Assembly: GCF_000150955.2 (NCBI RefSeq)
Contig: NC_011677.1
Span: 310,001-374,000 of the forward strand
Direction: 5' to 3'
Source: Phaeodactylum tricornutum CCAP 1055/1
Lineage: Eukaryota > Bacillariophyta > Bacillariophyceae > Surirellales > Neidiaceae
DNA length: 64,000 bases
Shown here: piece after piece, positions 3,177 to 25,425 of the stretch
Layout of the letters: every line of letters begins with the position of its first letter
Position numbering within the stretch: the stretch's first letter is position 1
Made by a program: the position numbers and the translations under genes
The notes under the pieces: model-generated
The model's input: only the letters and a program-made list of their open reading frames with translations
Told to the model about the DNA's origin: nothing
Database searches by the model: none

Positions 3177-3177
3177 A

Positions 3178-5007: not shown

Positions 5008-5198
5008 GTTGGCTGGCTTTTGGTTGCAGGTTTCCTTCACAGCTTCGCAGACCGTACGTAAGAGGAATTGTCTACAAGAAAACTAGTACACGTACGTGTC
5101 GCAATTAGTCATTTGCTTTTATTTTCTACTGTGCTTATATAAGGGTGCAAATTTCCTGCGCCAACCGTGCGCCGCCTGGACTAGTGCCAATCGAACAC

Positions 5199-5999
5199 TT
5201 AGTGGAGCTCCTGGGGCTCACTGTACAAGAAGTCGTCCATGACGACAAAGTCCGTACGGCCGCGGCGGCTGGTGTCCTCGATCGCCTTGGTGCCCAGCTC
5301 CACCTCCACCTTGGCAATGGGGAACTTTTCCGATTGGGAGACGAGGCCCACAAACGAGAGGCCGTCTTTGAGGGCCTTGGCATCTTCCTGGGCGATGATG
5401 CAGCCGCTGTCGGCGTAGAACGTCAGCGTGGTCTTGTGGCTAAGGTCAACATCGACCAGCACAGCGCCAAAGCCCGCCACGGTGGCCTCTTTATGGCTTC
5501 CGGGCACGGTGAACTCCGCTACGAATTCGTTGTCGCCGCCCGCCACCGTGAAAAGGCGAAAGGCGGAGAAGGTCTGGAAGTCCTTGGCGGCCCTGGGGCT
5601 GATGGAATCGAACAGGTCGTCCTTGGGGCCGTCTTTGGGGTCGGGGTTGCTGACGCGGAACTCGTCGCGCTTGGAGCGGAGGTTGAGGCCGCGGTCCACA
5701 GTCGTGGCGAAGAAGTCGCCCGGCATGTCGAAGGGCACTATGGGTGCGTCCCAGTTCACCTGGCGGTGACCCTCCGCGGAGGGCGCCGCCCCGTTCCCGT
5801 TGTTTTCCCCGCCCAGCAGGTCGCGGAAGACCTCGAAGCCGTCCTTCAGGCCGTCAGCGTCGGGAGATGTGGCGCTCACCACGGTGACGGGGATGAGGGC
5901 ACCATGCTCCTTGCAGAAGCGGGTGGCATGGACGGAGGTTGCGGTGGCCTGGAGGGCGGCGAGGAGGAAGAGGGCGACGTTCGGGGCAGTAAATTTCAT
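5199..5999 (-). CDS. Secreted protein, copy A, bacterial exported-protein-like
   Basis: 266 residues in one exon. An N-terminal signal peptide (MKFTAPNVALFLLAAL, small residues to about residue 25, likely cut after SVHA) predicts export or entry to the secretory pathway. The mature part has NWDAPI, ANFF-like GDFFATTVDRGLNLRS, FSAFRLFTVAG, a Val/Thr-rich beta region with VAGFGAVLVDVD, LTFYADSG, LSFVGLV and DFVVMDDFLYSEP near the end. This order resembles a bacterial exported beta-sandwich family that I know only as uncharacterised proteins, so no function is assigned. This copy differs from B and C in a short patch near residue 240 (SRRGRTDF instead of SRFRGFADF), which leaves it one residue shorter but open. 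The gene is much richer in G and C than its surroundings. Confidence 0.8.
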   Translation of the reverse strand: MKFTAPNVALFLLAALQATATSVHATRFCKEHGALIPVTVVSATSPDADGLKDGFEVFRDLLGGENNGNGAAPSAEGHRQVNWDAPIVPFDMPGDFFATTVDRGLNLRSKRDEFRVSNPDPKDGPKDDLFDSISPRAAKDFQTFSAFRLFTVAGGDNEFVAEFTVPGSHKEATVAGFGAVLVDVDLSHKTTLTFYADSGCIIAQEDAKALKDGLSFVGLVSQSEKFPIAKVEVELGTKAIEDTSRRGRTDFVVMDDFLYSEPQELH

Positions 6000-6169
6000 G
6001 GTGTGAGGGATTGTGGAAGTATTGGTTGAGTTGGTGGGCAGGTTGCTGTTTGTCGTTGCTTGCTTTTTGGTTTTATGAGAGGTGTTGCATATTCGACGAA
6101 AGGCGGGTCGAGTGGGAGCGGGAGCCAACAAGATTTGAAAGCGGAGCAAGCAAGCTTGCATGAACCATT

Positions 6170-6778
6170 GCAAGTACTACCCTTGCAAACGCGTCTTACA
6201 TGAATTGTAGAACGATTGACAGTGAGCATCTTTTCGCGGAAAGAGAAGCAAGCGGGCGTGCACGCACCAATACAAGTAGTACACGTGCAAACGCTTCGCA
6301 ACACGATTGACATTTTCGCTGTGCTGTCGACCCTTTTGCTTACTTAACGGTATGAGGTTGTTTTGGCTTGTCTTTCATCTCCTGACCGTCAGTTTTGTAT
6401 TCTTCGCTCACGACATGGCACTAGACCGGACATCAAGACCAACAGGATACATACGCGTTTGACTGTGATGCACAAACACGCGATTGCAAAATCGAAACAT
6501 ACATCTTCTTCACTCAAGAGGCAAGCTGAGAAACGAATTATAGTTGACTGTACATATCTGGCATATTTGTATATCCTCTTTTGATTTTTCGACTTGCATA
6601 AGTCCCTATCTTTTGGTTGGTCGGTTACTTTTGTTAAACAAATAGATTACTTACAGTAGACTACACCTAAGCACCATTAAAAGTAGTACACGTGCCAAGG
6701 CCTATTGTATTGACTACACATTTGGTACGGTAGACTACAGGTAAGCACCGGTACAAGTAGTACATTTGCAAACCCTTC
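6170..6778 (-). promoter_or_regulatory. Four dispersed motif copies upstream of secreted-protein gene A
   Basis: Upstream of the gene (to its right) the word (A)CAAGTAGTAC followed by a variable middle and TGCAAACGC recurs at 6170-6194, 6271-6297, 6680-6701 and 6752-6778. The second and third copies carry CACGTG, the core bound by bHLH and many bZIP factors. The two distal copies are each preceded by a GTAGACTAC..GTAAGCACC-like block, so a larger 50-60 bp piece is repeated. Units B (21332-21941) and C (24678-25287) keep all four. A regulatory role is inferred from repetition and position only. Confidence 0.45.
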
Positions 6779-7038
6779 TTGTAATAATTGTCAAAACTGC
6801 TTCCGCACGGCGTTACTTTTAGATTTGTGACGTCATGTTCATGCTTGATTTTCAGTGCCGCACCGAAGCGAGCCCATCAAGCCATTGGTACACGACCCTG
6901 CGGAGCCTTTCTTTTTTTGCTTGTCTTCTCTTCATTGCGTTGCTGGTGTCTAGTTCAATGGCTCAAACCAAGATGGCCAGTGCGAGCTTGCCCCTATTTC
7001 TTCCAAAGCCCGCGGTGAATACAGTACACCTCCACTTT

Positions 7039-7712
7039 TGTCACATATACTTCCAATGTACACGTGTGGACAGAATGCTGTTAGGAACAAAGTCTGGTAA
7101 TCCGGGGAGGGCACTATTACAAACAACCGGCAATACACCTAAGAGACTTAGGGACTGTTAAACTCTACTCATTGGCAATGCTCTCCTTGGGAAAGGCAGT
7201 GGATACAAGAACCTGTGCATAAAAAGCAGTGCAGATCAAAGAACTTATAAACAATGATTGCAGAATTAGTGTAGTAAACTAGTTCTTGCTGCTCCTCCAA
7301 TTTGCGAAGATACAAAAAAAGCTGAGGAACAAACTCAACCATACCCATATATTTTTGTTCCGTCATAGTATCCTTATACCATGACACATGCTCACATATA
7401 CTTCTAGTGGAACCGGAAATACCTTTCATAAGACGCATGGCGTAAAAAATGGAGCATTTATTTACAACTGTCAGCCAGGCAATAAGTATTGTCTGGCCCA
7501 CTCTGTTGCCACCGTCAGAACATGACTGGTTCCATTGCGTTCTCTCCAATGCCCAATACATTGTTGTATCTAGGGGCTCTGTACAATACGACCAAAGTAA
7601 CTTCCATACAACTTACTTCTCTCTTATGAACACTCCAGCTGCCATTTACCATGTTGGTGTCAGATGACCGGACATCCTTAGAAGACATGTTGTATGATAC
7701 CATTTCGTGACA
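7039..7712 (-). repeat. 3' LTR of the old CoDi element
   Basis: About 674 bp reading TGTCACGAAATGG at its minus-strand start (7712) and ending in TGACA at 7039. It is preceded on the minus strand by a purine-rich run beside the end of the RNase H region, the normal place of a 3' LTR. It closely resembles the solo LTR at 18238-18915 over its whole length, including the AGTCTGGTAATCC and TTAGGGACTG blocks. Confidence 0.8.
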
Positions 7713-8405
7713 TTCCCAATTGGTCTGTGCTGTATCAACTAATGCCTTGGTATTGCACTCAGATGTATCTCCTTGCCAAAACAGAATTGTCTTAAGAAGA
7801 AACCAGGCTTGTTGGAAACCCCAATGCTTGCTCAACCTAATGGCAGGATTGTTGGCTTCCAAAATCTTCTGGAAATCTGCATTGCCAGCTGCAATCATTT
7901 TGCGGACTCAATGATAAGACAAAGCATTGTGTTGTTTGTTGATTGGTAATTGCAACTCAGTAAAGCTTGTTATATCCAACTGGGTATCACCAAACACAAT
8001 AGTCTTTCCTTTAACCGCAACTCCTAGGTACCTCATGGAAATGCGCACGTCAATGATTTATTCTACTGCAATATGTGCAGCAACAACTCAGATCCCTAGG
8101 TATCAGTCTCAACAGTAGCCTGTTGTTTTGAAAACCTTTCAAAAGGAGTTTGGTTTATGAGGTGAAGGATACCAGTGACTGAACAATCTATGATCATATC
8201 ATGATATAAGTTTGCGTTGGCATATGTAGTTGAGATAACAGTCTTTCCCAAGGCTGTAGGAGCATCATGGCAATGTTAAAACGTCCCAATGTGATAAGCC
8301 ACTGTAGACTCCCAATCAACAAGTGATACTGCTTGATCCCATCTTTGTTTTGTGCAGGGGTGGAATCCAACTCAGGATGATTGCTGTTATCTAACAGTGA
8401 GGCAT

Positions 8406-9007
8406 ATTGATAAATTATAGCCACACAATGCTACAATTTGATACTATGTTGTAGATAGAATTGCTTAGCCTTAGCATTGTTTGTTGGAACATCTATCTAG
8501 GATTCACTAGCTCTATTTCTTGGCCTCGTTGCCATTTCCTTTTTCCTGGCTCTGTCGTAGGACAGACGCAGTGGCCAGACGGCTGCCCTCGTCGGGTTCA
8601 TTACCCGTTTGTGGCATGCCAGAGGAAAATACAAAGCGTCTCATAGGAAACCAAATATTTGCGTTATGCATCCAAATGTTTGCAACATACACAACTCTGG
8701 TTTCCGTTGCATGACGCATATAAGACGACTCGTCTTATCAAACCTGATACGCTAGGAACGAAATATTCCTGATTACCATATGGTTTCCCTAGATGAAAGT
8801 TGTCAACAGATACTGTTGCACCATCCGAACTCGATGGTTTGGCGATCACATAGGTGATCCAATCATCTCGACAAAGACTATGTCAATGATTCAATAGCCA
8901 GTACATTGGCTCCTAGATAGATGTTCCAACAAACAATGCTAAGGCTAAACAATTCTATCTACAACATAGTATCAAATTGTAGCATTGTGTGGCCATAGTT
9001 TATCAAT
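8406..9007. mobile_element. Non-autonomous DNA element (MITE-like), about 600 bp, long terminal inverted repeats
   Basis: The first and last roughly 96 bases are inverted copies of each other: ATTGATAAATTATAGCC.. at 8406 and ..GGCCATAGTTTATCAAT ending at 9007, each running inward to TCCTAGATAGATG. The inner part contains a perfect 20-base palindrome, ATAAGACGACTCGTCTTAT, around 8720-8740. There is no coding capacity for a transposase. It sits inside the reverse transcriptase region of the old CoDi element, and the bases at the junction suggest a 4-bp ATAT target duplication, though the A/T-rich palindromic ends leave this ambiguous. A related copy lies at 48648-49202. Confidence 0.8.
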
Positions 9008-10603
9008 ATTGCTTGGGTGGATTGCCATACATATGTTTGTACTGCTCCATCATTTGTGCATTGTATTTCTTGGCATGGTACAAAAGGGTTCCATCCTTGT
9101 CTCGTTCAAATGTGCAGCCTTAGTGGTAATCCAGTGGTCCGACGCCCTTGAGCTTGTACTTGTGAACACTTTTGAGTTGTTTGACAATGCTATTGGGGTC
9201 ATGGACTGCAACGGCAATGTCGTCGGCATAGACGGCGATGTATTTGTAGACGCCTTGACTGGGATGCATCCAAACGTCGGAGTCGGCTTTGCTAGGTGTA
9301 AAACCCATGTCACAAAGTGTGTCAGCAAACCTCTTATGCCAACAGAGTCCACTACTACGTACGCAATACAGGGCCTTGTTGATGATGAGTATGTGACCGG
9401 CAAGGTCCCCAACCTCTGGTCCGGCAACAACAAAGACTTTCTTTTGGATTTTGGCTTCAAGGTAAGCATTATTGAGGTCGGCTCTCAGCTCGGCTAGGAA
9501 CACAACAATACAGAGACTTCGAAGGGACACGACTCCAGAGTAGAGGTAAGGTGACCTCCAGCAACCATGCGGGCCTTGTGTCTACCATTGTGCTTAACAT
9601 TGTAGACCGTGTGAATCCTGATATTCCTGTAGCCTTGTGGAGCATTTGATATGTGTTTACCACTTAGAATAGCTTTACCCTTGTTGATGAATGTGTTGTA
9701 CTCATGGAGTTGCGTATGTTCGATATTTTTGGCATCCTGCCCCTTGGTATTACCATTGCGTCTGTCAATGTCAATGGTGTCCAGATGAACTTGAGGGATC
9801 TGGTAACCAAACTTGTAGGAGGGAACACAACGGATAAAATGAAAGCAACTTTGGTTGACAAAGCGTTGGAACTTCTTCTGACGGTTGACAAGTTGTTTGA
9901 ATTGCTTCCATCCCGGTGTATCTAGTAGACCTTGTTGTTTAGCACAGGCAGCACAAGTAATAGGATCATTGGCACATATGACATCTAGGGTTCATAGCTA
10001 GACTCTACAGTTTCCCAGTTTACCAAAACATTAAACTTAGAACCTTTATAGTTGATGTCTGTGGGTAGGAGGGGTCCTTGATGTGCAACAATGTCATTGA
10101 ATTTCCATTGCCGGTCTGTATCAGCTACAGTTTAGTTCCTTTTCTAGATCAGTCTCGACTTTATCTAGAATTTCGTTGTAGGCAATGATTTCATTATGTT
10201 CACTGTTGTTGATCTCAACTAGGAATTGAATATTGTGTGGTTTGTCAGGATCAAGAATTTTCCTGGCAACACATGCACGAAAACTCTCCCCATTATCCTG
10301 AGTGTTGGTTAAAATGTGCGACCAATAAGATTGTCCAGAGTGAAATCAGTTAGTGTGTGGGGGGCATAGGAATTTTCGTCCTCAGTTCTACGCGACTAAT
10401 GAAGTTGATAGGCTTAGGAGAACTCTCCCCTTCATGTGGCTCAAGACACCAATTGGTTTCACTGGTTTTCAGCGCAGATCAAACACTGCATCAAAAAAGT
10501 GTGGGGTGAGAATCTTACAGGTAAGAGCATCACCAACGGAGTCTGCAATTCCAACAAATTGTCCTTTCTTTTGAGCAAATCCAGTGGTTGTGGATCTGGT
10601 GAT

Positions 10604-10700
10604 GTGACGTAGGTAGTATGTCACAGCACCTATAATTTAATCTTGTGTTACGTATCATCACGTCCTGTATGGAATGTACAGTAAATATGGACCTACGTAT
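10604..10700 (+). repeat. LTR-related fragment inside the old CoDi element
   Basis: About 95 bp (TGTGACGTAGGTAGTATGTCACAGC onward, about half of it) match, inverted, the right end of the solo LTR at 2677-3176 (3088-3176). It interrupts the integrase/RT linker region of the old element. Its outer bases ACGTAGGT and ACCTACGT are inverted copies, so a tiny inverted-repeat derivative is also possible. Confidence 0.5.
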
Positions 10701-10764
10701 CCACTTGATTAATTGACTTTTCAGTTCCATCGGAAGGAAAAGTTGGGTCTTGAGTTGGTAATAC

Positions 10765-11378
10765 TGTCACGGTATACACCAAGGCGACATGTCCCTACGA
10801 CAAGTGACACCTAACATGGGTAACGGAAGTGTGAATCAGAGTAAAGAGCATGGTGGAACCGTGGCATTTATGTCGGCCTTATTGCACGACACAATGTATT
10901 CGCGCCGTGATCAAGGATATCCTTTGAGTGAAGATGCAGGAGCAGAATACAAGAATGAGGATTAGGATACAGTCCCACGAATTACAAGGCAAGTTACAGA
11001 CAGGTTTGGATACTCGCTGAGTGATTCTATGTGGGATTTATACTTAGAAGGGATATACTCTATGTGGGAGTAAGATTATCTGGCACATGGTAAGAGGTCT
11101 TCTATCTGATAGAATGGCCAATTCTCATGGACTAGTAGTAGAATAATCTTCCTCTCATTGTTTTAGAAAGTCATTGATCCAAATATTGCATTAGCATAGG
11201 TCCTCGTATCCGCTGTCTAACCCGTGGGGAGCGTCGTAAGCGAGTTGAGTTTTACAGTCCCTAAGTTCACTTAGGTGTATCGCAGGTCGTTCGTAATAAC
11301 GCCCACCTTGCGTTTACCAGGTATTGTCGACACAGCGTTTCCTGTTCTACGTACGTACATTGGTTGTACTACGTAACA
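10765..11378 (+). repeat. 5' LTR of the complete CoDi element
   Basis: 614 bp from TGTCACGG to GTAACA, with no visible difference from the 3' LTR. It should hold the promoter and transcription start. The block at 11195-11310 is the part conserved across all LTRs of this window. Confidence 0.95.
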
Positions 11379-12051
11379 GATTAACAGTCTTGACAGCACG
11401 TCAAACCACTGCTGCTCATCCGCACAGTCGTTACTGGTAAACATTCCTTAAGTCTACTTAAGGTCGTTCTCAAATTTCCACGAGCTCCGTAAATTTTGAG
11501 GACTAAATCGCTTACATCCATTCGTGTTGTATAAGTGCCAGAGGTATCACTTAAGGTGATATTTATCGGCTTGTGTGACACATTGTTTGAAAGCCGCTTC
11601 CCTACTCCCTCGCGCTAACTGGTACCGAGGACCCATTAGTACTGCTTCAGGGTCTTGTCGGTAAGTTACTCGTGGCCTCCCTACTTCCTCGGAGTCGCCG
11701 GTGCCGAACCCCCCTTGGAGTCTTCAGGGTTTGTCGGCAGGGTCGCTTCGTGAATACGGGTTGCTCTGGTCAAGTGAGGTAGAGATACCAATAGGCTTGA
11801 GGACCTCAGCCCTGATTCCGGTTGGAACGGACTTACTACCCGGCGTAAAGTAGTACGGGGGGGGCTAATCAAACCCTCGTCAGTCCCCGAGGACACTGCC
11901 TACGGAGGTAGAAGTGAGTGTACCAGTGCTAGCTTCGTTCACTGGTGTAGGGTCATTTTAACGAAGTCCGCTATAGTATACAGCGAAGGACCTGAACACA
12001 TAAGTAGTAATTTTCAAGAATTCCTATATTGTGTTGGCTTCTCAGGCCACC
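11379..12051 (+). other. Leader between 5' LTR and Gag-Pol frame
   Basis: About 670 bp of the complete element without coding signals. The primer-binding site should begin at or just after 11379 (GATTAACAG), but I could not assign the primer tRNA. The stretch 11590-11900 contains several near-repeated phrases around CCCTACT.CCTCG. Confidence 0.6.
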
Positions 12052-15000
12052 ATGGTTCCCGCCACCCGGCAAATGACGAGTGCAGCCGTCTATGCCCACC
12101 TTTTGGACAACGTACTTCTTCTTCCCCAAGGGCATCCTATCCGCCTCAGTTTTGAGCAACAAGGATATGAATCGGCTGATGATCTTCTGTGTATTTTTGA
12201 GAATGAACTTGAGTCTCTTGGATACACTCCTTCTGTCCTTCCCGACGGCCTGGAAAACCCGCCAACTATACCCCTTCTCATGGCGCACCGACAGATCATA
12301 CGTCATTTCTTGCGCTGGCAGGCATCTTTGGAACGACAAAAGGGGACACCCTTGAAGAACTCCGAACTTGTTGCACTTAACAATGAAGATTTTGTCCTTT
12401 ACCGTCGCTCAGCCCTTGGTCAAGTCTCGACAGCAACTGCACCGGTTAATGCTTCCCCAACTGTCCAGAGCCCCATAGGAAAGACACGTTCGGCTGTCGA
12501 GGACTTCAAGCGTGGGATCAAACGTGACAAAACTCACTATCCCGTGCTTAAAGATGATCGGTACTGGGACAACTTTTATCGGTCGTTTGTTGTTACTGCC
12601 GTAACACATAACGTTGACAAAGTTCTAGATCCGACGTACATCCCTACCGATCCCTTGGAGAAATCCCTTTTTGAAGAGCAGAACAAGTTCGTATATTCTG
12701 CTCTAGAGCATACTCTCCAGACGGACATGGGCAAGAACATTGTACGCGAGCATAGTTTCGACTTCAATGCCCAGGAAGTTTTCCGTAAGGTTGTGAAACA
12801 CTACACAGAGTCCGCTAGCGCGAAGATTAGTTCGTCTACTACCCTGGGATACCTTACAACTGCAAAGTACGGATCGTCATGGACTGGCACAGCAGAAGGT
12901 TTTATTCTTCACTGGAAAAATCACTTGCGCATCTACAATGACACTGTTCCTGCTGGTGAACAGCTTCCTCAGCAACTATGCCTTAGTCTTTTGGAGAATG
13001 CTGTTCATGATGTACCTGAGCTTCGACAGGTAAAAATCACTGCAACTCTTGACTTAGCAAAGGGAGGTAATCCTATTAGCTATGATGGTTATCTCAGTCT
13101 ACTACTCGCATCGGCATCGCTCTACGACAACGGCAATAATCTATCTAATTCTCGTAGTGGCAAGAACAAGCGCAACATCTATGCTAATGAACTAGAGTAC
13201 AATCCGATGGATTTTGAGAGTAAACCGGATGTAGACTATGATATAGATGTGTCGCCTACCGCAATCTACGAAGCCAATGCTCATGCCCGTAACAGCAGTT
13301 CCCGGAATCGTAGTCCGGCAGCTAATCGCGAGCGACCTTACATCCCTCGTGAAATGTGGAACCTGCTCTCCGACGATGCCAAAGCCATCCTCCAAGGCTT
13401 AATAGCCCCCGGGAAGCAGGCCCCGTTGAATAATACGCCACACCAATCGTTGCAGGCCAATACGCACGATACCATTGGCGCGGAACGAATCACAACGGAC
13501 ACCTTCCATGATTGCGCACCCGAAACTGAATTGCTTGCCCACCTGACTGAGCGTGTTAGTCACATGAGCGACGGCGACATACGTAAGGTACTTGCCGCAT
13601 CTCGTGATGGTCCCGCCTATGATGAGCCCACACCACTGCAATCTAACGTACTTCAATATCAAGTGTCTCGTCACAACGTCATTGAAACTACGGCAGCCCT
13701 CGTCGACCGTGGAGCCAATGGAGGTCTTGCCGGCAGTGATGTCATGGTCTTGCATAAAACAGGTCGTTCTGCAACCATCACAGGTATCAATGATCATACC
13801 TTGTCCGATTTGGACATTGTCACCGCTGCTGGCTACACTGAATCCCAAAATGGCCCCATCATTCTCATTATGAACCAATACGCCCATTTGGGACAGGGTA
13901 AAACTATCCACTCCAGTGCACAGCTTGAACACTATCGCAACCATGTCGAAGACCGTTCCCGTACTGTAGGAGGTAACCAGCGAATTGTAACATTGGATGA
14001 CTACATCATCCCATTGCACATTCGACAAGGACTCGCGTACATGGATATGCGGCGTCCTACCGACAAGGAACTTGCGTCCCTTCCACACGTTGTCCTAACC
14101 TCCGACGTAGACTGGGATCCCTCCGTACTTGACCACGAAATTGATCTCGCGACCTCTTGGTATGATGACATATATGATTTGCCTCAATCACCTTACGTTG
14201 AACCACGTTTTGACCATACAGGCAAATACCTCCATCGTCACATTTCCCTTTGCAACCATCGCGATGACGTTGTTGACCGCGTATTATATTGCCAACGGCA
14301 CCTCGTCACGAAAAATGTGCAAGATTATGAGGCCCTTCGTCCGTGTTTTGGATGGGTCTCTGCTGAAACCGTTCGCAAGACCATCATGGCGACCACGCAG
14401 CATGCACGCGAAGTATATAACGCTCCGTTACGCAAACATTTTAAGTCTCGCTTTCCCGCTCTAAATGTACACCGTCGTAATGACCCAGTTGCTACCGATA
14501 CCATTTGGTCCGACACCCCTGCTGTCGATAATGGTGCTAAATTTGCACAACTTTTCGTTGGTCGACGCTCCCTTGTCACCGACGCTTACCCCATGAAAAC
14601 TGACAAAGAATTCGTCAATACCCTTGAGGACCATATCCGTTACCGGGGTGCCATGGACAAATTGATTAGCGATCGTGCCCAGGTTGAAATCAGCAAAAAG
14701 GTCACCGATATTACACGCGCATATAATATCGACCAGTGGCAAAGTGAACCAAACCATCAACACCAAAACTTTGCCGAACGTCGTATTGCCACTATCGAGG
14801 CTAATACCAACAACATTCTCAATCTTTCCGGTGCCCCTGATTCCGCCTGGTTACTTTGCGTGACATATGTTTGTTATGTTTTCAACCATTTGGCACATGA
14901 ATCCCTAGATAACCGCACTCCCCTTGAAGTCCTCACCGGCTCCACGCCTGATATCAGTGTTCTCCTTCAGTTTCATTTTTGGGAACCGGTCTATTATAAG

Positions 15001-17745
15001 CTCGAAAATGCGACATTTCCTTCTGGTGGTACCGAACAACAAGGACGTTTTGTTGGCATAGCCGACTCCGTCGGCGACGCTCTCACTTATAAGATACTTA
15101 CCCACACCACCAACCGCATTCTTCATCGCTCTAGTGTCCGTTCTGCGACCATTCCCGGACAAACCAACCTACGCCTTACGCCACAGGATGGGGAGAGTGG
15201 TCCTAAACCCATCAACTTTATCAAGTCGCGTAGAACCGAAAACAAAAATTCCTATGCCATTAAGGAGTTGCCTGGTTTCACACCTGATGACCTTATAGGT
15301 CGTACGTTCCTCACCGACACTCGGGATGATGGGGAGCGTTTGAAGGCACGAATCACGCGGAAAATATTGGACCCAGACAAGCCCTCGGATGTAAAGTTCC
15401 TTGTCGAAATCAATGATGGTGAATATGACGAGATTCTAGCATACAACGAAATTCTAGATAAAATCGAGACGAATCTAGATAAGGAACTCCATGACACGGA
15501 ACGACAGTGGAGTTTTAAGGACATCGTCGCGCACGAAGGACCTCTTTTACCACGCGATAAGAACTACAAGGGGTCCAGATTCAACGTACTTGTCAATTGG
15601 GAGACTGCGGAGTCTACCTATGAGCCGCTAGACGTTATCGGTGTCGATGACCCAATTACATGCGCTGTCTATGCTAAGAGTCAAGGACTATTAGACACTC
15701 CAGGATGGAAGAAATTCAAGCGCCTCGTAACTAGGGATAAGCAGGTCCAGCGACTCGTCAACCAAACTCGTCAGCAGACTAGTCGAGTCGAGCCCACTCA
15801 CAAGTTTGGCTACCAAATTCCTCGCGACCATAAGGATGCCATTGCTATTGATACGCTCAATGGTAATCGTAATTGGCAAGATGCAGAGAGTATTGAGAGA
15901 GCCCAGCTCCACGAATATGAGACTTTCGTTGACATCGGTAAGGCTACCACACTCGGTAAACATGTTACGAATGCACCCAAAGGCTACAAGAAGATTCGTG
16001 TCCATACCGTATACGACGTCAAGCATGACGGTAGGCACAAGGCCAGAATGGTTGCTGGAGGGCATCTAACTCCTGTCCCAACCGAAAGCGTGTACTCTGG
16101 TGTGGTCTCTCTACGCAGTCTTCGTATTGTTGTCTTCCTTGCTGAATTAAATGGACTTAAGCTATGGGGAGCTGACATAGGCAATGCGTATCTGGAAGCA
16201 AAAACAAAAGAGAAGGTGTTCATTGTTGCAGGCCCAGAATTCGCTGAACTCGAGGGACACATACTTGTTATCAACAAGGCTCTCTACGGACTTCGAAGCA
16301 GTGGCCTACGTTGGCACGAACGGTTCGCAGATACCCTTCGCGATCTAGGTTTCACCGCTAGCAAGGCAGATTCTGATGTTTGGATGAGAGAGAATAGTGG
16401 TGTCTATGAGTACATTGCAGTTTACGTCGATGATATAGCCGTTGCTGCCCAGGACCCCGAAGGAATCATCCGTCAACTCAAGGAAAAGTACAAGTACAAG
16501 CTAAAGGGTGTAGGCCCATTGCAATACCATCTGGGGTGTACTTTCGAACGCGATAAGGATGGTACGCTGTCGTATCACCCAAAGAAGTACATATCGAGAA
16601 TGATGGAACAATATGAGCGAATCTTCCAGGAACAACCAAGGATGTACGTATCGCCGCTGGAGAAGGGCGATCACCCAGAGCTGGATTCGACTCCTGAACT
16701 TGATGAAAACGGTATCAAACAGTACCAGTCTCTTATTGGTAGTTTGCAATGGTTGATTACGCTTGGCCGCTTTGATATAGCGACAGCAGTCATGAGCATG
16801 TCTAGATACCGGGTGGCACCTCGTGAGGGGCATCTTGACAGACTAAAAAGGATGTACGGATACATCAAGAAAATGAAGAATGGTGCAATCAGGGTCCGAA
16901 CCGATGAACCAGAATATACAGACCTCCCCGACAAACCACGTGATTGGACGACTTCGGTGTATGGGGATGTTAAAGAACTGCTTCCCCATAATGCCCCGAC
17001 GGCTCTTGGAAAGTACGTGATGCTGACCAGTTACGTTGACGCAAATCTATACCATGACATGGTAACGGGTCGCTCCGTAACGGGTGTTTTACACCTTGTC
17101 AACCAAACCCCATTTGAATGGTATTCCAAAAGACAAGCAACCGTCGAGACAGCCACGTACGGTTCAGAATTTGTTGCCGCACGTATTGCAGTCGAGCAGA
17201 TTATAGACATACGAACCACCTTACGATTCCTTGGAGTTCCCATACGGGGCAAGTCGGTACTTTTCGGAGACAATCAATCGGTCATTATTAGTTCGACGGA
17301 ACCGCAGTCTCCAATCAACAAGCGACACAACGCATTGTCCTACCACAGGGTGCGTGAGGCAATTGCCGCTGGGATTGTTGATTTTCGGAAGATCTTGGGT
17401 GCTGAGAATGTTGCCGACGTCCTCAGTAAGCATTGGGGTTTCCAACAAGCGTGGCCTGTTCTAAAACCACTTTTGTTTTGGCAAGGAGACACATCAAAAT
17501 GTGAGGTAAAGGATTCCAAGCCATCAAGTCAGGCCGATGGGGAGTGTCACGGTATACACCAAGGCGACATGTCCCTACGACAAGTGACACCTAACATGGG
17601 TAACGGAAGTGTGAATCAGAGTAAAGAGCATGGTGGAACCGTGGCATTTATGTCGGCCTTATTGCACGACACAATGTATTCGCGCCGTGATCAAGGATAT
17701 CCTTTGAGTGAAGATGCAGGAGCAGAATACAAGAATGAGGATTAG
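12052..17745 (+). CDS. Gag-Pol polyprotein of the complete CoDi element
   Basis: One open frame of 1897 residues from the ATG at 12052, which stands in a strong GCCACCATGG context. In order: Gag-like region (to about residue 420); protease region (about 540-600); integrase with a His/Cys-type N-terminal segment and an acidic core (about 720-1000, around DTPAVDNGAKF and KLISDRAQ); a linker; reverse transcriptase (about 1300-1580) with ADIGNAYLEAK and the YVDD box at about 16425; RNase H (about 1650-1810) with FGDNQSVI and KHWGFQQAW. The last 200 bp run into the 3' LTR. Copia elements usually make Gag and Pol from one frame, as here. The element looks whole. Confidence 0.95.
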   Translation: MVPATRQMTSAAVYAHLLDNVLLLPQGHPIRLSFEQQGYESADDLLCIFENELESLGYTPSVLPDGLENPPTIPLLMAHRQIIRHFLRWQASLERQKGTPLKNSELVALNNEDFVLYRRSALGQVSTATAPVNASPTVQSPIGKTRSAVEDFKRGIKRDKTHYPVLKDDRYWDNFYRSFVVTAVTHNVDKVLDPTYIPTDPLEKSLFEEQNKFVYSALEHTLQTDMGKNIVREHSFDFNAQEVFRKVVKHYTESASAKISSSTTLGYLTTAKYGSSWTGTAEGFILHWKNHLRIYNDTVPAGEQLPQQLCLSLLENAVHDVPELRQVKITATLDLAKGGNPISYDGYLSLLLASASLYDNGNNLSNSRSGKNKRNIYANELEYNPMDFESKPDVDYDIDVSPTAIYEANAHARNSSSRNRSPAANRERPYIPREMWNLLSDDAKAILQGLIAPGKQAPLNNTPHQSLQANTHDTIGAERITTDTFHDCAPETELLAHLTERVSHMSDGDIRKVLAASRDGPAYDEPTPLQSNVLQYQVSRHNVIETTAALVDRGANGGLAGSDVMVLHKTGRSATITGINDHTLSDLDIVTAAGYTESQNGPIILIMNQYAHLGQGKTIHSSAQLEHYRNHVEDRSRTVGGNQRIVTLDDYIIPLHIRQGLAYMDMRRPTDKELASLPHVVLTSDVDWDPSVLDHEIDLATSWYDDIYDLPQSPYVEPRFDHTGKYLHRHISLCNHRDDVVDRVLYCQRHLVTKNVQDYEALRPCFGWVSAETVRKTIMATTQHAREVYNAPLRKHFKSRFPALNVHRRNDPVATDTIWSDTPAVDNGAKFAQLFVGRRSLVTDAYPMKTDKEFVNTLEDHIRYRGAMDKLISDRAQVEISKKVTDITRAYNIDQWQSEPNHQHQNFAERRIATIEANTNNILNLSGAPDSAWLLCVTYVCYVFNHLAHESLDNRTPLEVLTGSTPDISVLLQFHFWEPVYYKLENATFPSGGTEQQGRFVGIADSVGDALTYKILTHTTNRILHRSSVRSATIPGQTNLRLTPQDGESGPKPINFIKSRRTENKNSYAIKELPGFTPDDLIGRTFLTDTRDDGERLKARITRKILDPDKPSDVKFLVEINDGEYDEILAYNEILDKIETNLDKELHDTERQWSFKDIVAHEGPLLPRDKNYKGSRFNVLVNWETAESTYEPLDVIGVDDPITCAVYAKSQGLLDTPGWKKFKRLVTRDKQVQRLVNQTRQQTSRVEPTHKFGYQIPRDHKDAIAIDTLNGNRNWQDAESIERAQLHEYETFVDIGKATTLGKHVTNAPKGYKKIRVHTVYDVKHDGRHKARMVAGGHLTPVPTESVYSGVVSLRSLRIVVFLAELNGLKLWGADIGNAYLEAKTKEKVFIVAGPEFAELEGHILVINKALYGLRSSGLRWHERFADTLRDLGFTASKADSDVWMRENSGVYEYIAVYVDDIAVAAQDPEGIIRQLKEKYKYKLKGVGPLQYHLGCTFERDKDGTLSYHPKKYISRMMEQYERIFQEQPRMYVSPLEKGDHPELDSTPELDENGIKQYQSLIGSLQWLITLGRFDIATAVMSMSRYRVAPREGHLDRLKRMYGYIKKMKNGAIRVRTDEPEYTDLPDKPRDWTTSVYGDVKELLPHNAPTALGKYVMLTSYVDANLYHDMVTGRSVTGVLHLVNQTPFEWYSKRQATVETATYGSEFVAARIAVEQIIDIRTTLRFLGVPIRGKSVLFGDNQSVIISSTEPQSPINKRHNALSYHRVREAIAAGIVDFRKILGAENVADVLSKHWGFQQAWPVLKPLLFWQGDTSKCEVKDSKPSSQADGECHGIHQGDMSLRQVTPNMGNGSVNQSKEHGGTVAFMSALLHDTMYSRRDQGYPLSEDAGAEYKNED

Positions 17746-18158
17746 GATACAGTCCCACGAATTACAAGGCAAGTTACAGACAGGTTTGGATACTCGCTGA
17801 GTGATTCTATGTGGGATTTATACTTAGAAGGGATATACTCTATGTGGGAGTAAGATTATCTGGCACATGGTAAGAGGTCTTCTATCTGATAGAATGGCCA
17901 ATTCTCATGGACTAGTAGTAGAATAATCTTCCTCTCATTGTTTTAGAAAGTCATTGATCCAAATATTGCATTAGCATAGGTCCTCGTATCCGCTGTCTAA
18001 CCCGTGGGGAGCGTCGTAAGCGAGTTGAGTTTTACAGTCCCTAAGTTCACTTAGGTGTATCGCAGGTCGTTCGTAATAACGCCCACCTTGCGTTTACCAG
18101 GTATTGTCGACACAGCGTTTCCTGTTCTACGTACGTACATTGGTTGTACTACGTAACA
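17545..18158 (+). repeat. 3' LTR of the complete CoDi element
   Basis: 614 bp, TGTCACGG to GTAACA, preceded by the purine tract GATGGGGAG and followed by the target duplication AATAC. The tail of the Gag-Pol frame (17545-17745) lies inside it, so the same sequence occurs in the 5' LTR without a frame leading into it. Confidence 0.95.
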
Positions 18159-18237
18159 AATACATTGGTTCCCAGAAATGAAATTGAAGGTGTACACTAA
18201 TATTGGGAGTACTGCCGGAAAGAATTTCGAGAGGGGT

Positions 18238-18915
18238 TATCACAATATACTACCAAAGTACACCGTGTGGACAGAAAGCTGTTAGGAACAGAGTCTGGTA
18301 ATCCAGGGAGGGCACTATTACAAACAACCGGCAATACACCTAAGAGACTTAGGGACTGTAAAACTCTATTTGTTGATGACGCTCCCCACAGGTTAGACAG
18401 TGGATACAAGGACCTATGCAATAAAGGCAGTACGGATCAAAGAACTTATGAAACAATGATTGAAGAATTAGTGCTATAAAATAGTTCTTGTTGTTCCTCC
18501 AATTTGCCAAGATACAACAAAACCTGAGGAACAAACTCAAACAAAACAAAATATCTTTCCTTTGCCATAGTATCCTTATACCATGGCGCACACTCACATA
18601 TACTATAGTGGAACCGGAAATACCTTTCAAAACACACATGACACGGAAAATGGAGCGCATACATTTACATCCGCTAGTCAGGTGATAAGGATTGGCTGTC
18701 CCACTCTGTTGCCACTGTCAGAACACAACTGACTTTGTCACGTTCTCTCCAATGCCTGATACATTGTTATACTTAGGAATTCCATACAAGAAGACCAAAT
18801 TAAGTTCTATGCAACTCACTTCATGCTTGTAAACACTCCAACTGCCATCCATCATGTCAACACCTAACAAATGGACATTCTTGGTGGACATGTCGCATGG
18901 TACTAAACCGTGACA
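18238..18915 (-). mobile_element. Solo LTR, CoDi type, 678 bp, inside the old element
   Basis: Minus strand starts TGTCACGGTTTAG at 18915 and ends near GTATATTGTGATA at 18238. GGGGT flanks both sides (18233-18237 and 18916-18920), a 5-bp target duplication. It lies in the integrase region of the old CoDi copy, between ESLHNW and the following pol segment. Close to the LTR at 7039-7712, hence probably the same subfamily. Confidence 0.88.
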
Positions 18916-19746
18916 GGGGTCCAATTGTGTAAAGACTCATGTGCCAAATGATTAAATCAATATCAAATGTAGGAAACACACAATAACCATGTAAAATTGG
19001 GAACACCAGTTTTGTTTAAAATATTATTTGCGTTTGCTTCAACAGATGTAATTTGAAGTTCAGCATAATTTTGGTGCTGATGATTGGGCTCACCCTGCCA
19101 TTGATCAATGTGATAAGCACAAGTAAGGTCAGACACTTTCTTGCTGATTTTGGCCTTGGCATGGTTGCTGATAAGTTTATCCATGGCGCCTCAATGACAA
19201 ATATTGTCCTCAAGAGCATTAGCAGATTCTTTGTCAGTTTTCATAGGATAAAAGTCGGTAACAAGCAGTTGTTGGCCAACAAATAGTTGCACAGATTTAG
19301 CTCCGTTATCAACAGTGGGTGTATTCAACCAAATGGTATTGGTAACCACAGCCTCATTGCGGCAATGAACATTGAGTGCTGGAAAACAGTACTTGGAATG
19401 ATTACGCTTAGGTGCATTATAGACTTTGCAAGCAAAGTGCGTGGTGGCCAAAATGGTTTTCTTGACTGTGTTGGAGGAGACCCAACCAAGGCAAGGACGC
19501 AAGGCTTTGTCATTATGTGTGTTGCAAAACATGTTGTGCTTATTTAACAAAAGTATATTGTCAATAGCTGTGGAATGAGCAACACTGCCAGGTGACAAAA
19601 ACATATCAAAATTTGCAACATGTTGGTGTTGATATTCACCAGTCAAATTTGAAATGGGGCTCAATGTACGGATCATATGGGAGATCCTGGATAGCATTAA
19701 TAAATCAGTGGCAAGTTCAGTTTCATTGTCAGTAAGGGATGGATCC

Positions 19747-20472
19747 TGTCACAATATACACCACTGTACACCGTGGGACAAAACGCTGTTAGAAACAGAA
19801 TCTGGTAAGACTTGTGGGCATTATTACAAATGACCTGCAATACACCTAGGCCGGCTTAGGGACTGTAAAACTCTACTTGTTGGCAATGCTTTCCTTGGGT
19901 TAGGCAGCGGATACAAGGACCTATGCAAAGGCAGTACGGATCAAAGAACTCATAAAACAATGATAGAAGATTAAGTTCTACAAACTAGTGCCTTTTGTCA
20001 GATCATATCCAAACTTGACTGCAGTCCTGGCAGCTTCACCAATTAAACCTGAATCTTCCATGCTCACCATAGTATCCATATAATGCAAAGTCCGTTCTTG
20101 CATACTTATCAAGGAATTGTAAGTATCTGTTGTAACACACATGGTATAAAAATTGGGTCCTGTCAATTTGCATCCGTTTCCCTTGTGTTTCCATCCAAAT
20201 ATTTCTTTCCGTTGAACCAATTACTTCCTTGTTGCAACTGAAGTCTCCATACTAATCAAGAGCCTTCTCAAAGTAAGTAGGGAATACTGCAAATCCGTGC
20301 CCATGTATCTTCTCACTATGCCATAATTAAATAGGAATGCATATAATAAGGCCAATTCCACTGACATGTACACAACTTTCAGTAAACATGTATACACTTG
20401 ATTTCTGCTTGTGACACACTTGTTTTGAGATAAATGTCTCAAAGACACACGGGACGGGTACATACCGTGAGA
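19747..20472 (-). mobile_element. Solo LTR, CoDi type, 726 bp, inside the old element
   Basis: Minus strand starts TCTCACGGTATGTACCC at 20472 and ends GTATATTGTGACA at 19747, with GATCC on both sides (19742-19746 and 20473-20477). Near-identical, inverted, to the solo LTR at 3598-4336. It split the pol region of the old element within the segment that reads VNWD on one side and DPSLTDNE on the other. Confidence 0.9.
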
Positions 20473-21331
20473 GATCCCAATTGACACCGGAAGTAAACAC
20501 AATGTGGGGCAATGTGTCAAATTCCGCATCGGAAGGAGGTTGCATGTGCATATAAGCAAGTCCATGAAAAAACATGTAGAGGAGTAACATAGTTGTCTAG
20601 AGTAACAATGCCTTGTTTACCCCCCAGGATACAAGAATGGTCTTCAACACTATTCTTGTGGTACTCAAGTTGCGCACTAGAATGAATCGTTTTCCCTTTT
20701 CCATGGTGTGCATACTGGTGAAGTATGACAATGATGGGTCCATTTTGAGATTCAAGGAGGCGGGCGGCGGTGACAATATCCCAATTGTTGTCTTAACATT
20801 AGTATTGCACAACTTACCAGGGTGTTTACGACAATCTAACGTTCTAGTGCATTCAATTGCTAGATTGTAAATGAATTGCGTGAATAATCTATACTGTTTC
20901 CTGCTCGTTGGAAACCATACTAAATCCATGGGACTTGAAAGTGAATGTGGTGGGATCCACTGTTAGAATTGGAGTTCTTCCCAATCTCAAGTAATTCTGT
21001 GTAGAGAGATTCTTGTTGTCCCGCTTTGAAATTTAAATGCTGCTTTCGTGAACCCTTCTTGATTAAGGCTCCCTTGATATATTGACCTTGATTAGTGTAC
21101 CGCGACTCCTGGGTTTCTTGGTTAGGTTCATCCATGGCTGGAGTCATAAGGAAGAGTTATTCGCGTATGACGAAACATGACTTCATATACATATGATAAG
21201 TCTCTCCATACATATGTTACAAAGTAACATTGATGAGCTCGCTTCGGTGCGGCACTGAAAATCAAGCATGAACATGACGTCACAAATCTAAAAGTAACGC
21301 CGTGCGGAAGCAGTTTTGACAATTATTACAA

Positions 21332-21941
21332 GAAGGGTTTGCAAATGTACTACTTGTACCGGTGCTTACCTGTAGTCTACCGTACCAAATGTGTAGTCAA
21401 TACAATAGGCCTTGGCACGTGTACTACTTTTAATGGTGCTTAGGTGTAGTCTACTGTAAGTAATCTATTTGTTTAACAAAAGTAACCGACCAACCAAAAG
21501 ATAGGGACTTATGCAAGTCGAAAAATCAAAAGAGGATATACAAATATGCCAGATATGTACAGTCAACTATAATTCGTTTCTCAGCTTGCCTCTTGAGTGA
21601 AGAAGATGTATGTTTCGATTTTGCAATCGCGTGTTTGTGCATCACAGTCAAACGCGTATGTATCCTGTTGGTCTTGATGTCCGGTCTAGTGCCATGTCGT
21701 GAGCGAAGAATACAAAACTGACGGTCAGGAGATGAAAGACAAGCCAAAACAACCTCATACCGTTAAGTAAGCAAAAGGGTCGACAGCACAGCGAAAATGT
21801 CAATCGTGTTGCGAAGCGTTTGCACGTGTACTACTTGTATTGGTGCGTGCACGCCCGCTTGCTTCTCTTTCCGCGAAAAGATGCTCACTGTCAATCGTTC
21901 TACAATTCATGTAAGACGCGTTTGCAAGTGTAGTACTTGCA
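21332..21941 (+). promoter_or_regulatory. Four dispersed motif copies upstream of secreted-protein gene B
   Basis: Same four AGTAGTAC/TGCAAAC motif copies as in unit A, here at about 21332-21360, 21413-21430, 21816-21840 and 21914-21941, the middle two with CACGTG. Distance from the nearest copy to the start codon is about 170 bp, as in the other units. Confidence 0.45.
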
Positions 21942-22110
21942 ATGGTTCATGCAAGCTTGCTTGCTCCGCTTTCAAATCTTGTTGGCTCCCGCTCCCACTC
22001 GACCCGCCTTTCGTCGAATATGCAACACCTCTCATAAAACCAAAAAGCAAGCAACGACAAACAGCAACCTGCCCACCAACTCAACCAATACTTCCACAAT
22101 CCCTCACACC

Positions 22111-22914
22111 ATGAAATTTACTGCCCCGAACGTCGCCCTCTTCCTCCTCGCCGCCCTCCAGGCCACCGCAACCTCCGTCCATGCCACCCGCTTCTGCAAG
22201 GAGCATGGTGCCCTCATCCCCGTCACCGTGGTGAGCGCCACATCTCCCGACGCTGACGGCCTGAAGGACGGCTTCGAGGTCTTCCGCGACCTGCTGGGCG
22301 GGGAAAACAACGGGAACGGGGCGGCGCCCTCCGCGGAGGGTCACCGCCAGGTGAACTGGGACGCACCCATAGTGCCCTTCGACATGCCGGGCGACTTCTT
22401 CGCCACGACTGTGGACCGCGGCCTCAACCTCCGCTCCAAGCGCGACGAGTTCCGCGTCAGCAACCCCGACCCCAAAGACGGCCCCAAGGACGACCTGTTC
22501 GATTCCATCAGCCCCAGGGCCGCCAAGGACTTCCAGACCTTCTCCGCCTTTCGCCTTTTCACGGTGGCGGGCGGCGACAACGAATTCGTAGCGGAGTTCA
22601 CCGTGCCCGGAAGCCATAAAGAGGCCACCGTGGCGGGCTTTGGCGCTGTGCTGGTCGATGTTGACCTTAGCCACAAGACCACGCTGACGTTCTACGCCGA
22701 CAGCGGCTGCATCATCGCCCAGGAAGATGCCAAGGCCCTCAAAGACGGCCTCTCGTTTGTGGGCCTCGTCTCCCAATCGGAAAAGTTCCCCATTGCCAAG
22801 GTGGAGGTGGAGCTGGGCACCAAGGCGATCGACGACACCAGCCGCTTTCGCGGCTTTGCGGACTTCGTCGTCATGGACGACTTCTTGTACAGTGAGCCCC
22901 AGGAGCTCCACTAA
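22111..22914 (+). CDS. Secreted protein, copy B, bacterial exported-protein-like
   Basis: 267 residues, one exon, same signal peptide and domain order as copy A. Residues about 26-60 form a polar N-terminal piece after the signal; NWDAPIVPFDMPGDFF begins near residue 83; the Val/Phe-rich strands and the terminal VVMDDFLYSEP box follow. It keeps SRFRGFADF where copy A differs. Two cysteines (near residues 29 and 203) could form one disulphide. No membrane anchor, GPI signal or ER retention signal is visible at the C-terminus (QELH). Codons end mostly in C or G. The function is unknown. Confidence 0.85.
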   Translation: MKFTAPNVALFLLAALQATATSVHATRFCKEHGALIPVTVVSATSPDADGLKDGFEVFRDLLGGENNGNGAAPSAEGHRQVNWDAPIVPFDMPGDFFATTVDRGLNLRSKRDEFRVSNPDPKDGPKDDLFDSISPRAAKDFQTFSAFRLFTVAGGDNEFVAEFTVPGSHKEATVAGFGAVLVDVDLSHKTTLTFYADSGCIIAQEDAKALKDGLSFVGLVSQSEKFPIAKVEVELGTKAIDDTSRFRGFADFVVMDDFLYSEPQELH

Positions 22915-23117
22915 GTGTTCGATTGGCACTAGTCCAGGCGGCGCACGGTTGGCGCAGGGAAGTGAGCAGGAAATTTGCGCACTTATATATGCACAGTAGA
23001 AAATAAAAGCAAATGACTAATTGCGACACGTACGTGTACTAGTTTTCTTGTAGACAATTCCTCTTACGTACGGTCTGCGAAGCTGTGAAGGAAACCTGCA
23101 ACCAAAAGCCAGCCAAC

Positions 23118-23598
23118 AGGCGAAAATAAAAGTGAATGACTTATTGCGACATGCACAAACAATTGACCAAACTTGAGCATTGTCAGTTGCATAAGACTCT
23201 TCTTCATAAGGACAGTGCGCAATCGTCTCTTCAAATGCATCCATGTAATGAATTATGACATGAAAATTGTATTTGTTGCATGTTTATTGATAGTGAATGG
23301 TTCTGGAATGGCATACGGCATTTGTTATCAACATCACTTACAGTTATTTTTTTTACAAGATATCTGTGCACCTTATCTTGCTTGTGTATATTGTTTGTAA
23401 CCCTACGCGCACTTCTTAAAAAAATTTGGAACAACAGGATCTCCAATAGCTCACCTTATCCAAGAAGAAGAATAACCTGAAGGGCATGATAACAATTAAA
23501 CGGATACATTTGAAGAGGTGATTGCGCACTGTCCTCATGAAGAAGAGTCTTATGCAACTGACAATGCTCAAGTTTGGTTGATTGTTTGTGCATGTCGC
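23118..23598. repeat. Centre of the B/C palindrome with a short inverted pair
   Basis: Two arms of about 105-125 bp (about 23120-23245 and 23500-23610) are inverted copies with about 250 bp of A/T-rich unpaired DNA between. Read outward from the centre, both arms keep one frame that includes FEE.IAHCP and EEESYATDNAQVW and differ by a few substitutions. The peptide looks like a scrap of a mobile-element or host protein I cannot name. The unpaired centre shows nothing recognisable. Confidence 0.6.
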
Positions 23599-23704
23599 AA
23601 TTAGGCATTAGCTTTTATTTTCTACTGTGCTTTTAAGTGTGCAAATTTCCTGCTCACTTCCCTGCGCCAACCGTGCGCCGCCTGGACTAGTGCCAATTGA
23701 ACAC

Positions 23705-24508
23705 TTAGTGGAGCTCCTGGGGCTCACTGTACAAGAAGTCGTCCATGACGACAAAGTCCGCAAAGCCGCGAAAGCGGCTGGTGTCGTCAATGGCCTTATT
23801 GCCCAGCTCCACCTCCACCTTGGCAATGGGGAACTTTTCCGACTGGGAGACGAGGCCCACAAACGAGAGGCCGTCTTTGAGGGCCTTGGCATCTTCCTGG
23901 GCAATGATGCAGCCGCTGTCGGCGTAGAAGGTCAGCGTGGTCTTGTGGCTAAGGTCAACATCGACCAGCACAGCGCCAAAGCCCGCCACGGTGGCCTCTT
24001 TATGGCTTCCGGGCACGGTGAACTCCGCTACAAATTCGTTGTCGCCGCCCGCCACCGTGAAAAGGCGAAAGGCGGAGAAGGTCTGGAAGTCCTTGGCGGC
24101 CCTGGGGCTGATGGAATCAAACAGGTCGTCCTTGGGGCCGTCTTTGGGGTCGGGGTTGCTGACGCGGAACTCGTCGCGCTTGGAGCGGAGGTTGAGGCCG
24201 CGGTCCACAGTCGTGGCGAAGAAGTCGCCCGGCATGTCGAAGGGCACTATGGGTGCGTCCCAGTTCACCTGGCGGTGACCCTCCGCGGAGGGCGCCGCCC
24301 CGTTCCCGTTGTTTTCTCCGCCCAGCAGGTCGCGGAAGACCTCGAAGCCGTCCTTCAGGCCGTCAGCGTCGGGAGATGTGGCGCTCACCACGGTGACGGG
24401 GATGAGGGCACCATGCTCCTTGCAGAAGCGGGTGGCATGGACGGAGGTTGCGGTGGCCTGGAGGGCGGCGAGGAGGAAGAGGGCGACGTTCGGGGCAGTA
24501 AATTTCAT
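23705..24508 (-). CDS. Secreted protein, copy C, bacterial exported-protein-like
   Basis: 267 residues, one exon. It differs from copy B visibly only near residue 234 (GNKAIDDTS instead of GTKAIDDTS). The signal peptide, the NWDAPI box and the VVMDDFLYSEP box are intact, so all three copies look able to make protein. The gene faces away from copy B's direction: B and C are tail to tail, about 790 bp apart. Confidence 0.85.
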   Translation of the reverse strand: MKFTAPNVALFLLAALQATATSVHATRFCKEHGALIPVTVVSATSPDADGLKDGFEVFRDLLGGENNGNGAAPSAEGHRQVNWDAPIVPFDMPGDFFATTVDRGLNLRSKRDEFRVSNPDPKDGPKDDLFDSISPRAAKDFQTFSAFRLFTVAGGDNEFVAEFTVPGSHKEATVAGFGAVLVDVDLSHKTTLTFYADSGCIIAQEDAKALKDGLSFVGLVSQSEKFPIAKVEVELGNKAIDDTSRFRGFADFVVMDDFLYSEPQELH

Positions 24509-24677
24509 GATGTGAGGGATTGTGGTAGTATTGGTTGAGTTGGTTGGCAGGTTGCTGTTTGTTGTTGCTTGCTTTTTGGTTTTATGAGAGGTGTTGCATA
24601 TTCAACGAAAGGCGGGTCGAGCGGGAGCGGGAGCCAACAAGATTTGAAAGCGGAGCAAGCAAGCTTGCATGAACCAT

Positions 24678-25287
24678 TGCAAGTACTACACTTGCAAACG
24701 CGTCTTACATGAATTGTAGAACGATTGACAGTGAGCATCTTTTCGCGGAAAGAGAAGCAAGCGGGCGTGCACGCACCAATACAAGTAGTACACGTGCAAA
24801 CGCTTCGCAAAACGATTGACATTTTCGCTGTGCTGTCGAGCCTTTTGCTAAATTAACGGTATGAGGTTGTTTTGGCTTGTCTTTCATCTCCTGACCGTCA
24901 GTTTTGTATTCTTCGCTCACGACATGGCACTAGACCGGACATCAAGACCAACAGGATACATACGCGTTTGACTGTGATGCACAAACACGCGATTGCAAAA
25001 TCGAAACATACATCTTCTTCACTCAAGAGGCAAGCTGAGAAACGAATTATAGTTGACTGTACATATCTGGCATATTTGTATATCCTCTTTTGATTTTTCG
25101 ACTTGCATAAGTCCCTATCTTTTGGTTGGTCGGTTGCTTTTGTTAAACAAATAGATTACTTACAGTAGACTACACCTAAGCACCATTAAAAGTAGTACAC
25201 GTGCCAAGGCCTATTGTATTGACTACACATTTGGTACGGTAGACTACAGGTAAGCACCGGTACAAGTAGTACATTTGCAAACCCTTC
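24678..25287 (-). promoter_or_regulatory. Four dispersed motif copies upstream of secreted-protein gene C
   Basis: Motif copies at about 24678-24703, 24780-24806, 25190-25211 and 25261-25287; the second and third contain CACGTG. The first copy reads AAGTACTACACTTGCAAACG as in unit B, whereas unit A has one substitution there. Confidence 0.45.
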
Positions 25288-25425
25288 TTGTAATAATTGT
25301 CAAAACTGCTTCCGCACGGCGTTACTTTTAGATTTGTGACGTCATGTTCATGCTTGATTTTCAGTGCCGCACCGAAGCGAGCCCATCAAGCCATTGGTAC
25401 ACGACCCTGCGGAGCCTTTCTTTTC

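Follow-up and report, generated by a model that had tools for sequence, protein, structure and literature searches.

How does a gene with the appearance of a bacterial secreted protein come to stand in three almost identical copies on a diatom chromosome? The question is raised by a stretch of 64,000 nucleotides (nt) of Phaeodactylum tricornutum CCAP 1055/1 (assembly GCF_000150955.2, contig NC_011677.1, positions 310,001 to 374,000 of the forward strand), which is called the window here and whose first letter is position 1 in all coordinates below. A first-pass annotation, made from the letters alone, had seen in it a gene plausibly gained from bacteria and amplified inside a transposon island, as a candidate mobile or amplifiable cargo unit. 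The analysis described here supports a different picture of the copying. The gene is real and constrained, its product is probably secreted and belongs to an unnamed family of bacterial domains, the gene was probably acquired by transfer, and its three copies look like the products of ordinary rearrangement beside retrotransposons and not of a new mobile system.

Three intact, intronless reading frames of this gene, here called copies A, B and C, lie in the window, each within a longer repeated unit of gene and flanks whose limits come from pairwise alignment of the units:

5199-5999, minus strand: gene copy A, 266 amino acids, carrying the SRRGRTDF patch
22111-22914, plus strand: gene copy B, 267 amino acids
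23705-24508, minus strand: gene copy C, 267 amino acids, with GN where the others have GT
5008-6915, minus strand: repeated unit A
21230-23117, plus strand: repeated unit B
23593-25425, minus strand: repeated unit C

Units A and B are 98.7% alike over 1888 columns (5008-6880 against 23117-21230), units A and C 97.4% over 1834 columns (5097-6915 against 23593-25424), and units B and C 98.3% over 1799 columns (21230-23028 against 25389-23593), a likeness far above chance. The first-pass description of three intact and near-identical copies is borne out by these figures, and so are the two markers that it offered for telling them apart, SRRGRTDF being confined to copy A and GN to copy C. Between copies B and C there are 10 synonymous changes and one nonsynonymous change (synonymous divergence dS 0.053, nonsynonymous divergence dN 0.0016, omega 0.03, Fisher p 4e-6), so the protein is under purifying selection. 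The gene is also as G/C-rich as had been noted: G+C is 0.63-0.64 in the three coding sequences, and G+C at third codon positions (GC3) is 0.83-0.85, against 0.47-0.65 in nine other window frames measured. In copy A, C is the preferred third-position letter (98, against 40 G, 12 T and 5 A). Long antisense open frames extend over each copy (5145-6029, 22081-22929 and 23627-24538) and are probably mirror frames of a GC-rich gene.

The known relatives of this protein are bacterial. In a scan of genome contigs, 272 of 382 pattern matches proved to encode a relative, a lower bound because the search patterns were narrow; the best 80 were kept and correspond to 79 loci, spread over 11 named phyla. 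Identity of the kept relatives to the window protein reaches 46% over most of its mature part, with tblastn expectation values (E), relative to the candidate set, down to 4e-44. The motif order NWD, DFF, FGAV, VVMDDF is kept in many bacterial phyla, so the search for bacterial homologues that had been proposed did find hits with the same domain order, and the suggested resemblance to exported bacterial proteins holds. In addition, the window copy agrees with the bacterial rows at 42 of the 51 columns that they conserve at >=85%. With full-length similarity as well, the window protein can be assigned by sequence to an unnamed bacterial NWD-DFF-FGAV-VVMDDF domain family. Three alignments describe the family: A2 (74 rows); A3 (73 rows, namely 71 of the 79 loci plus window copies C and A, omitting L001 by rule, L045 with a stop and, by choice, L041, L049, L053, L060, L067, L070 and L075); and A4 (69 rows, namely 68 loci plus window copy C, with L059, L071 and L079 omitted as well).

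The spread of the domain is patchy: of the 48 genomes in the taxonomic family to which one Nitrospirales relative belongs, 4 have a member, and so do 4 of 29 genomes in the order of one Acaryochloris, where one genome carries a relative at 48% identity. A search of 72,556 plasmid records at E 0.1 had a single match, a Gemmatirosa plasmid protein (35% identity over 81% of the query). Phages and viruses were dropped as a source: phage records gave no match at E up to 1, and 63 pattern matches on viral contigs included no relative. Eight of nine relatives' genomes checked have one match and the ninth has two, and no shared operon was seen by eye around nine loci. At 3 of 80 bacterial loci (L053, L054 and L056) two or three domain members adjoin, so local duplication occurs in bacteria too. 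In the literature, no paper was recognised from its title and the start of its abstract as treating this protein family.

Did the diatom gene come from such bacteria? Trees were built from 83 rows (the 79 loci, L001 and the three window copies) and 244 columns. In the careful tree the window copies join ten bacterial rows at 98/80, and the ten hold together at 98/85. These rows, at 37-46% identity, belong to Acaryochloris, Nitrospirales, Alteromonadaceae, Phycisphaeraceae, Minwuiaceae and Pelagibius, which we take to be mostly marine. At 21 positions where the ten depart from the general state, the window has their state at 11 and the general state at 2; because the ten were the best hits from the start and were grouped after the hit list and a first tree, these counts are not independent and support the placement without testing it. 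Bacterial gene transfer into diatoms is known in general. Together, relatives with the same motif order and a tree position among them make gain by transfer the best reading, under which the window gene would likely be of bacterial ancestry and its entry into the host genome would not be recent.

Several results count against transfer. The window branch is long (1.67 changes per column), the letter make-up of the window rows is odd in the tree, and a tree holding the window with Gemmatimonadota and Bacteroidota rows, at a cost of 32.6 log units, is not rejected (approximately unbiased test, p-AU 0.115). Furthermore, the tree and searches were confined to bacterial, plasmid, phage and viral sequences, so transfer is likely rather than proven. 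The long branch and the sampling from non-eukaryotic collections would also suit a family that is ancient in eukaryotes, with the bacterial rows as cousins or recipients. This alternative is unlikely, in our estimate, as the window copies are nested within bacterial diversity, flanked on either side by bacterial rows, and the family is scattered over many bacterial phyla. Of the earlier proposal of gain by transfer followed by amplification, the transfer part is thus retained, subject to the long branch and the unrejected placement, and the amplifiable cargo unit is not.

Export of the protein is probable. The N-terminus of the window proteins has a hydrophobic core followed by VHA/T, which was taken as a signal peptide by eye. 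Among seven full bacterial proteins scanned, two reached the PEP-CTERM cut-off, two had a match below it and three carried RTX repeats, and these tails suggest export or a place on the cell surface. Uncharacterised bacterial secreted proteins of this kind (L003 and L014 with PEP-CTERM; L002, L004 and L012 with RTX) share the whole domain and its motif order with the window protein; a signal-like N-terminus is present in many, and identity to the window across the 71 loci of A3 is 31-47%. The window protein differs from them in being encoded in a eukaryotic chromosome and in having neither a sorting nor an RTX tail. The missing tails speak against the analogy: copy C has no Pfam match up to E 1 and is not a PEP-CTERM protein, and its frame stops directly past the domain with the residues EPQELH. 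HASP1, an abundant secreted P. tricornutum protein (PMC6617621), was dropped as an identity, being described there as 793 residues long with a phytase-like domain.

What such a protein would do outside the cell is approached through its predicted fold. None of 73 family members matches any Pfam family at 0.01, those of carbohydrate-binding modules (CBMs) included, and NCBIfam gave one weak match (0.0082) to one member. Weak fibronectin/monobody matches by sequence in the PDB (best E 0.067) were set aside, since a profile of 73 rows had no match to PDB chains up to E 1. AlphaFold2 models of copy C and of the L003 Nitrospirales domain (mean predicted local distance difference test, pLDDT, 85.6 and 94.0) are beta-sandwiches whose nearest, if weak, structural neighbours are CBMs. 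For copy C, CBM4-2 (E 0.0042, probability 0.95, template-modelling (TM) scores 0.29 and 0.41) comes next after the matches at E <=0.001. For L003, 23 of the 50 listed PDB matches are carbohydrate-, fucose- or chitosan-binding or lectin modules by our own count of titles. CBMs of jelly-roll fold (CBM4, CBM6, CBM29 and others) resemble the beta-sandwich model with Foldseek probability up to 0.99, although the window family is set apart from them by the lack of a Pfam sequence match and by weak TM scores. A jelly-roll domain of sugar-binding type is offered as no more than a best guess from the models. Four viral fold library matches at E <=0.001 (phage tail, collagen-like and unnamed proteins) were uninformative.

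The models also hold points that tell against sugar binding. The only PDB matches of copy C at E <=0.001 are two GH31 entries of probability 0.10 and 0.09, L003 has no match at that level, and TM scores do not exceed 0.52 (by target) or 0.37 (by query). The first match of L003 is a peptidoglycan O-acetylesterase (E 0.0020) and the acidic positions D84, D183, D256, D257 and E262 are strongly conserved, both of which would suit either an enzyme or a calcium-binding wall protein with a structural or adhesive role. Such a function is almost as probable as not, even though CBMs are the commonest kind among the listed fold matches and enzyme families gave no match.

How did one gene become three? 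The sequence between and beside the copies offers an answer, and its main features are as follows:

7638-10585, minus strand: right polyprotein half of an older Copia remnant, matching positions 998-1860 of the young element's polyprotein
10765-18158, plus strand: young Copia-type long terminal repeat (LTR) retrotransposon, with identical 614-bp LTRs at 10765-11378 and 17545-18158 and AATAC on both sides
18160-20780, minus strand: left polyprotein part of the older Copia remnant, matching positions 595-988 of the young element's polyprotein
23250-23494, no strand: spacer of 245 nt at the palindrome centre, between inner arms 23122-23249 and 23495-23622 (91%)

The young element has a 1904-amino-acid open frame with RVT_2 and, with its LTRs and target duplication, is a Copia LTR retrotransposon; its insertion cut the older, minus-strand Copia element in two. 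Similarity to Copia polyprotein extends over 7638-20780, between A and B. B and C are convergent and form a palindrome with arms at 21230-23249 and 23495-25389, which are 98.3% alike over the outer 1.8 kilobases (kb) and 90.6% over the inner 128 nt. Copy A is inverted relative to unit B and separated from it by about 14 kb. The transposon island of the first reading is thus real as a retrotransposon nest, which the copies flank instead of lying inside one element. Between A and B, a tract of 1608 nt has 3 differences and the 176 nt that follow have 7, indels apart (p 8e-6, for a break point picked by eye once the alignment had been seen); for B and C the counts are 22 in 1608 nt and 7 in 186 nt. 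The A/B pattern resembles the outcome of gene conversion or of a recent copying event, the 3' end of A being separate. A palindrome, a distant inverted copy, a near-identical A/B tract and nested Copia elements fit ordinary recombination. Two retroelement fragments, 3596-4343 and 20474-19740, are inverted repeats of each other too (93%).

Copies that are 97-99% alike in a repeat-rich region, with a palindrome that is hard to assemble, may raise the suspicion that alleles or repeats were misplaced side by side and that each chromosome has fewer than three. The differing flanks of A, B and C and the private differences of the copies make such an artefact improbable. More improbable still is a cassette that transposes or amplifies itself, formed by the 1.8-1.9-kb segment and carrying repeats of its own. 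Three near-identical units, a common outer end of A and C (at 6915 and 25425) and repeats upstream of every copy would agree with a cassette. However, unit ends are not the same throughout, B stopping elsewhere; terminal inverted repeats at the unit ends did not exceed shuffled controls (score reached by 208, 41 and 47 of 300 shuffles for A, B and C); no shared target duplication was seen by eye in the unit flanks; the units contain only a coding gene and its promoter; and the repeats are located in that promoter, where they fit regulation. The mobile cargo unit of the first-pass annotation is accordingly abandoned in favour of recombination.

About 90 nt that lie 3' of A and B (5008-5097 and 23029-23117) are absent from C. 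In B a second copy of the adjoining AT-rich motif comes after this stretch, which suggests that C lost it, or that A and B gained it, through recombination between short direct repeats.

A comparable arrangement has been described in the same species. A five-copy "unknown gene family" lies beside CoDi retrotransposons on P. tricornutum chromosomes 11 and 31, and the passages of that report on the family link it to transposable-element-associated recombination (PMC2806351). As described there, a pair of copies with its intergenic region and further copies stand beside Copia elements, as in the window, and one copy is recombinant. A difference is that two CoDi2.3 elements in those passages are without a target duplication, whereas the young element of the window has AATAC. 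The pair-plus-single pattern is similar, and the window genes may be members of that family. The same passages give the chromosome-31 genes as 50588/50589 and also as 50888/50889, and a literature search on these gene numbers and names returned nothing related by title.

The copies share more than their coding sequence, as the regions upstream of them make clear:

6000-6915, minus strand: upstream region of A, with four imperfect repeats, ACACGTGC and TGACGTCA
21230-22110, plus strand: upstream region of B, with the same repeats as A
24509-25425, minus strand: upstream region of C, with the same repeats as A

In each promoter the four imperfect repeats stand at about -763, -689, -282 and -180, and 12 of 881 upstream sites differ between B and C. 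Two of the four contain ACACGTGC, in reverse orientation at -696 and -289; six of its seven window sites are in the three promoters, and the two upstream of C compare with 0.067 expected (1 of 2000 simulations reaches that). Upstream of C the core TASTACTT is seen four times where 0.022 would be expected (2000 simulations gave at most 1), so the repeats credited to the unit as regulatory do exist. All 11 window matches to GTRTACTACTTNNA, with up to one mismatch, are inside the three promoters (0.36 expected). TGACGTCA, which presumably resembles diatom CO2/cAMP elements, stands at -836 and occurs three times in the window, once per promoter. The promoter is probably inducible, and possibly by low iron. 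For the second point, Lommer and co-workers reported ACACGTGC around -200 in the ISIP1, FLDA and FBA3 promoters of three diatoms (PMC3491386). Some considerations temper this idea, which is drawn from sequence. The window sites, at -289 and -696, are placed differently from those of the low-iron promoters in the relevant section of that paper. As the copies are duplicates, the ACACGTGC sites count as two independent ones, not six. According to the same section, most genome-wide ACACGTGC matches belong to genes without significant regulation, so the motif is a lead only.

The surroundings of the island carry traces of older events. A direct duplication lies on either side of it (1732-2592 with 25433-26260, 76%; 3175-3351 with 26475-26650, 85%). 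The left side has an unbroken frame at 1080-2309, whose partner on the right is interrupted by stops in all three forward frames; of a MitMem_reg gene, which we label CSN6-like, the right side has the complete form and the left side a fragment. The duplication may be the reciprocal decay of an old tandem duplication or an integration scar. Within the old Copia remnant, a sequence at 8404-9009 has inverted ends (97% arms) and a 95-96% relative outside the island at 48649-49202; it is likely a small foldback-type element. Besides the MitMem_reg protein, neighbouring window genes encode a DHHC palmitoyltransferase domain, a vacuolar sorting receptor domain and a HEAT-repeat importin-like protein. 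These neighbours are eukaryotic and argue against a bacterial contaminant. No RNA family was found in the window at the gathering threshold.

Taken together, these observations suggest the following course. A bacterial gene of an unnamed and so far bacterial family would have entered the diatom genome, not recently, and gained C-rich codons and a host promoter. Retrotransposon-linked recombination would later have made the B/C palindrome and the distant inverted copy A, with A and B as the latest pair to be copied or homogenised. The product would probably be exported and probably bind an extracellular or surface carbohydrate, under a promoter whose four imperfect repeats probably make it inducible, with low iron as a possible trigger. 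Because several links are inferred, the whole chain of a transferred secreted beta-sandwich gene, a host promoter and retrotransposon-linked copying is given slightly less than an even chance. A bolder version is considerably more doubtful: the diatom would have domesticated an unnamed lectin-like bacterial domain as a secreted protein regulated by nutrients, perhaps by low iron, and a palindromic amplification would have raised its dosage, with gene conversion keeping the copies alike. If this bolder version is true, a transferred gene would have been caught while being amplified under selection. The domain itself occurs in many bacterial phyla and is uncovered by Pfam for the 73 members scanned, and constrained copies with a simple promoter repeat layout in one compact locus make export, ligand, nutrient control and copy number each approachable.

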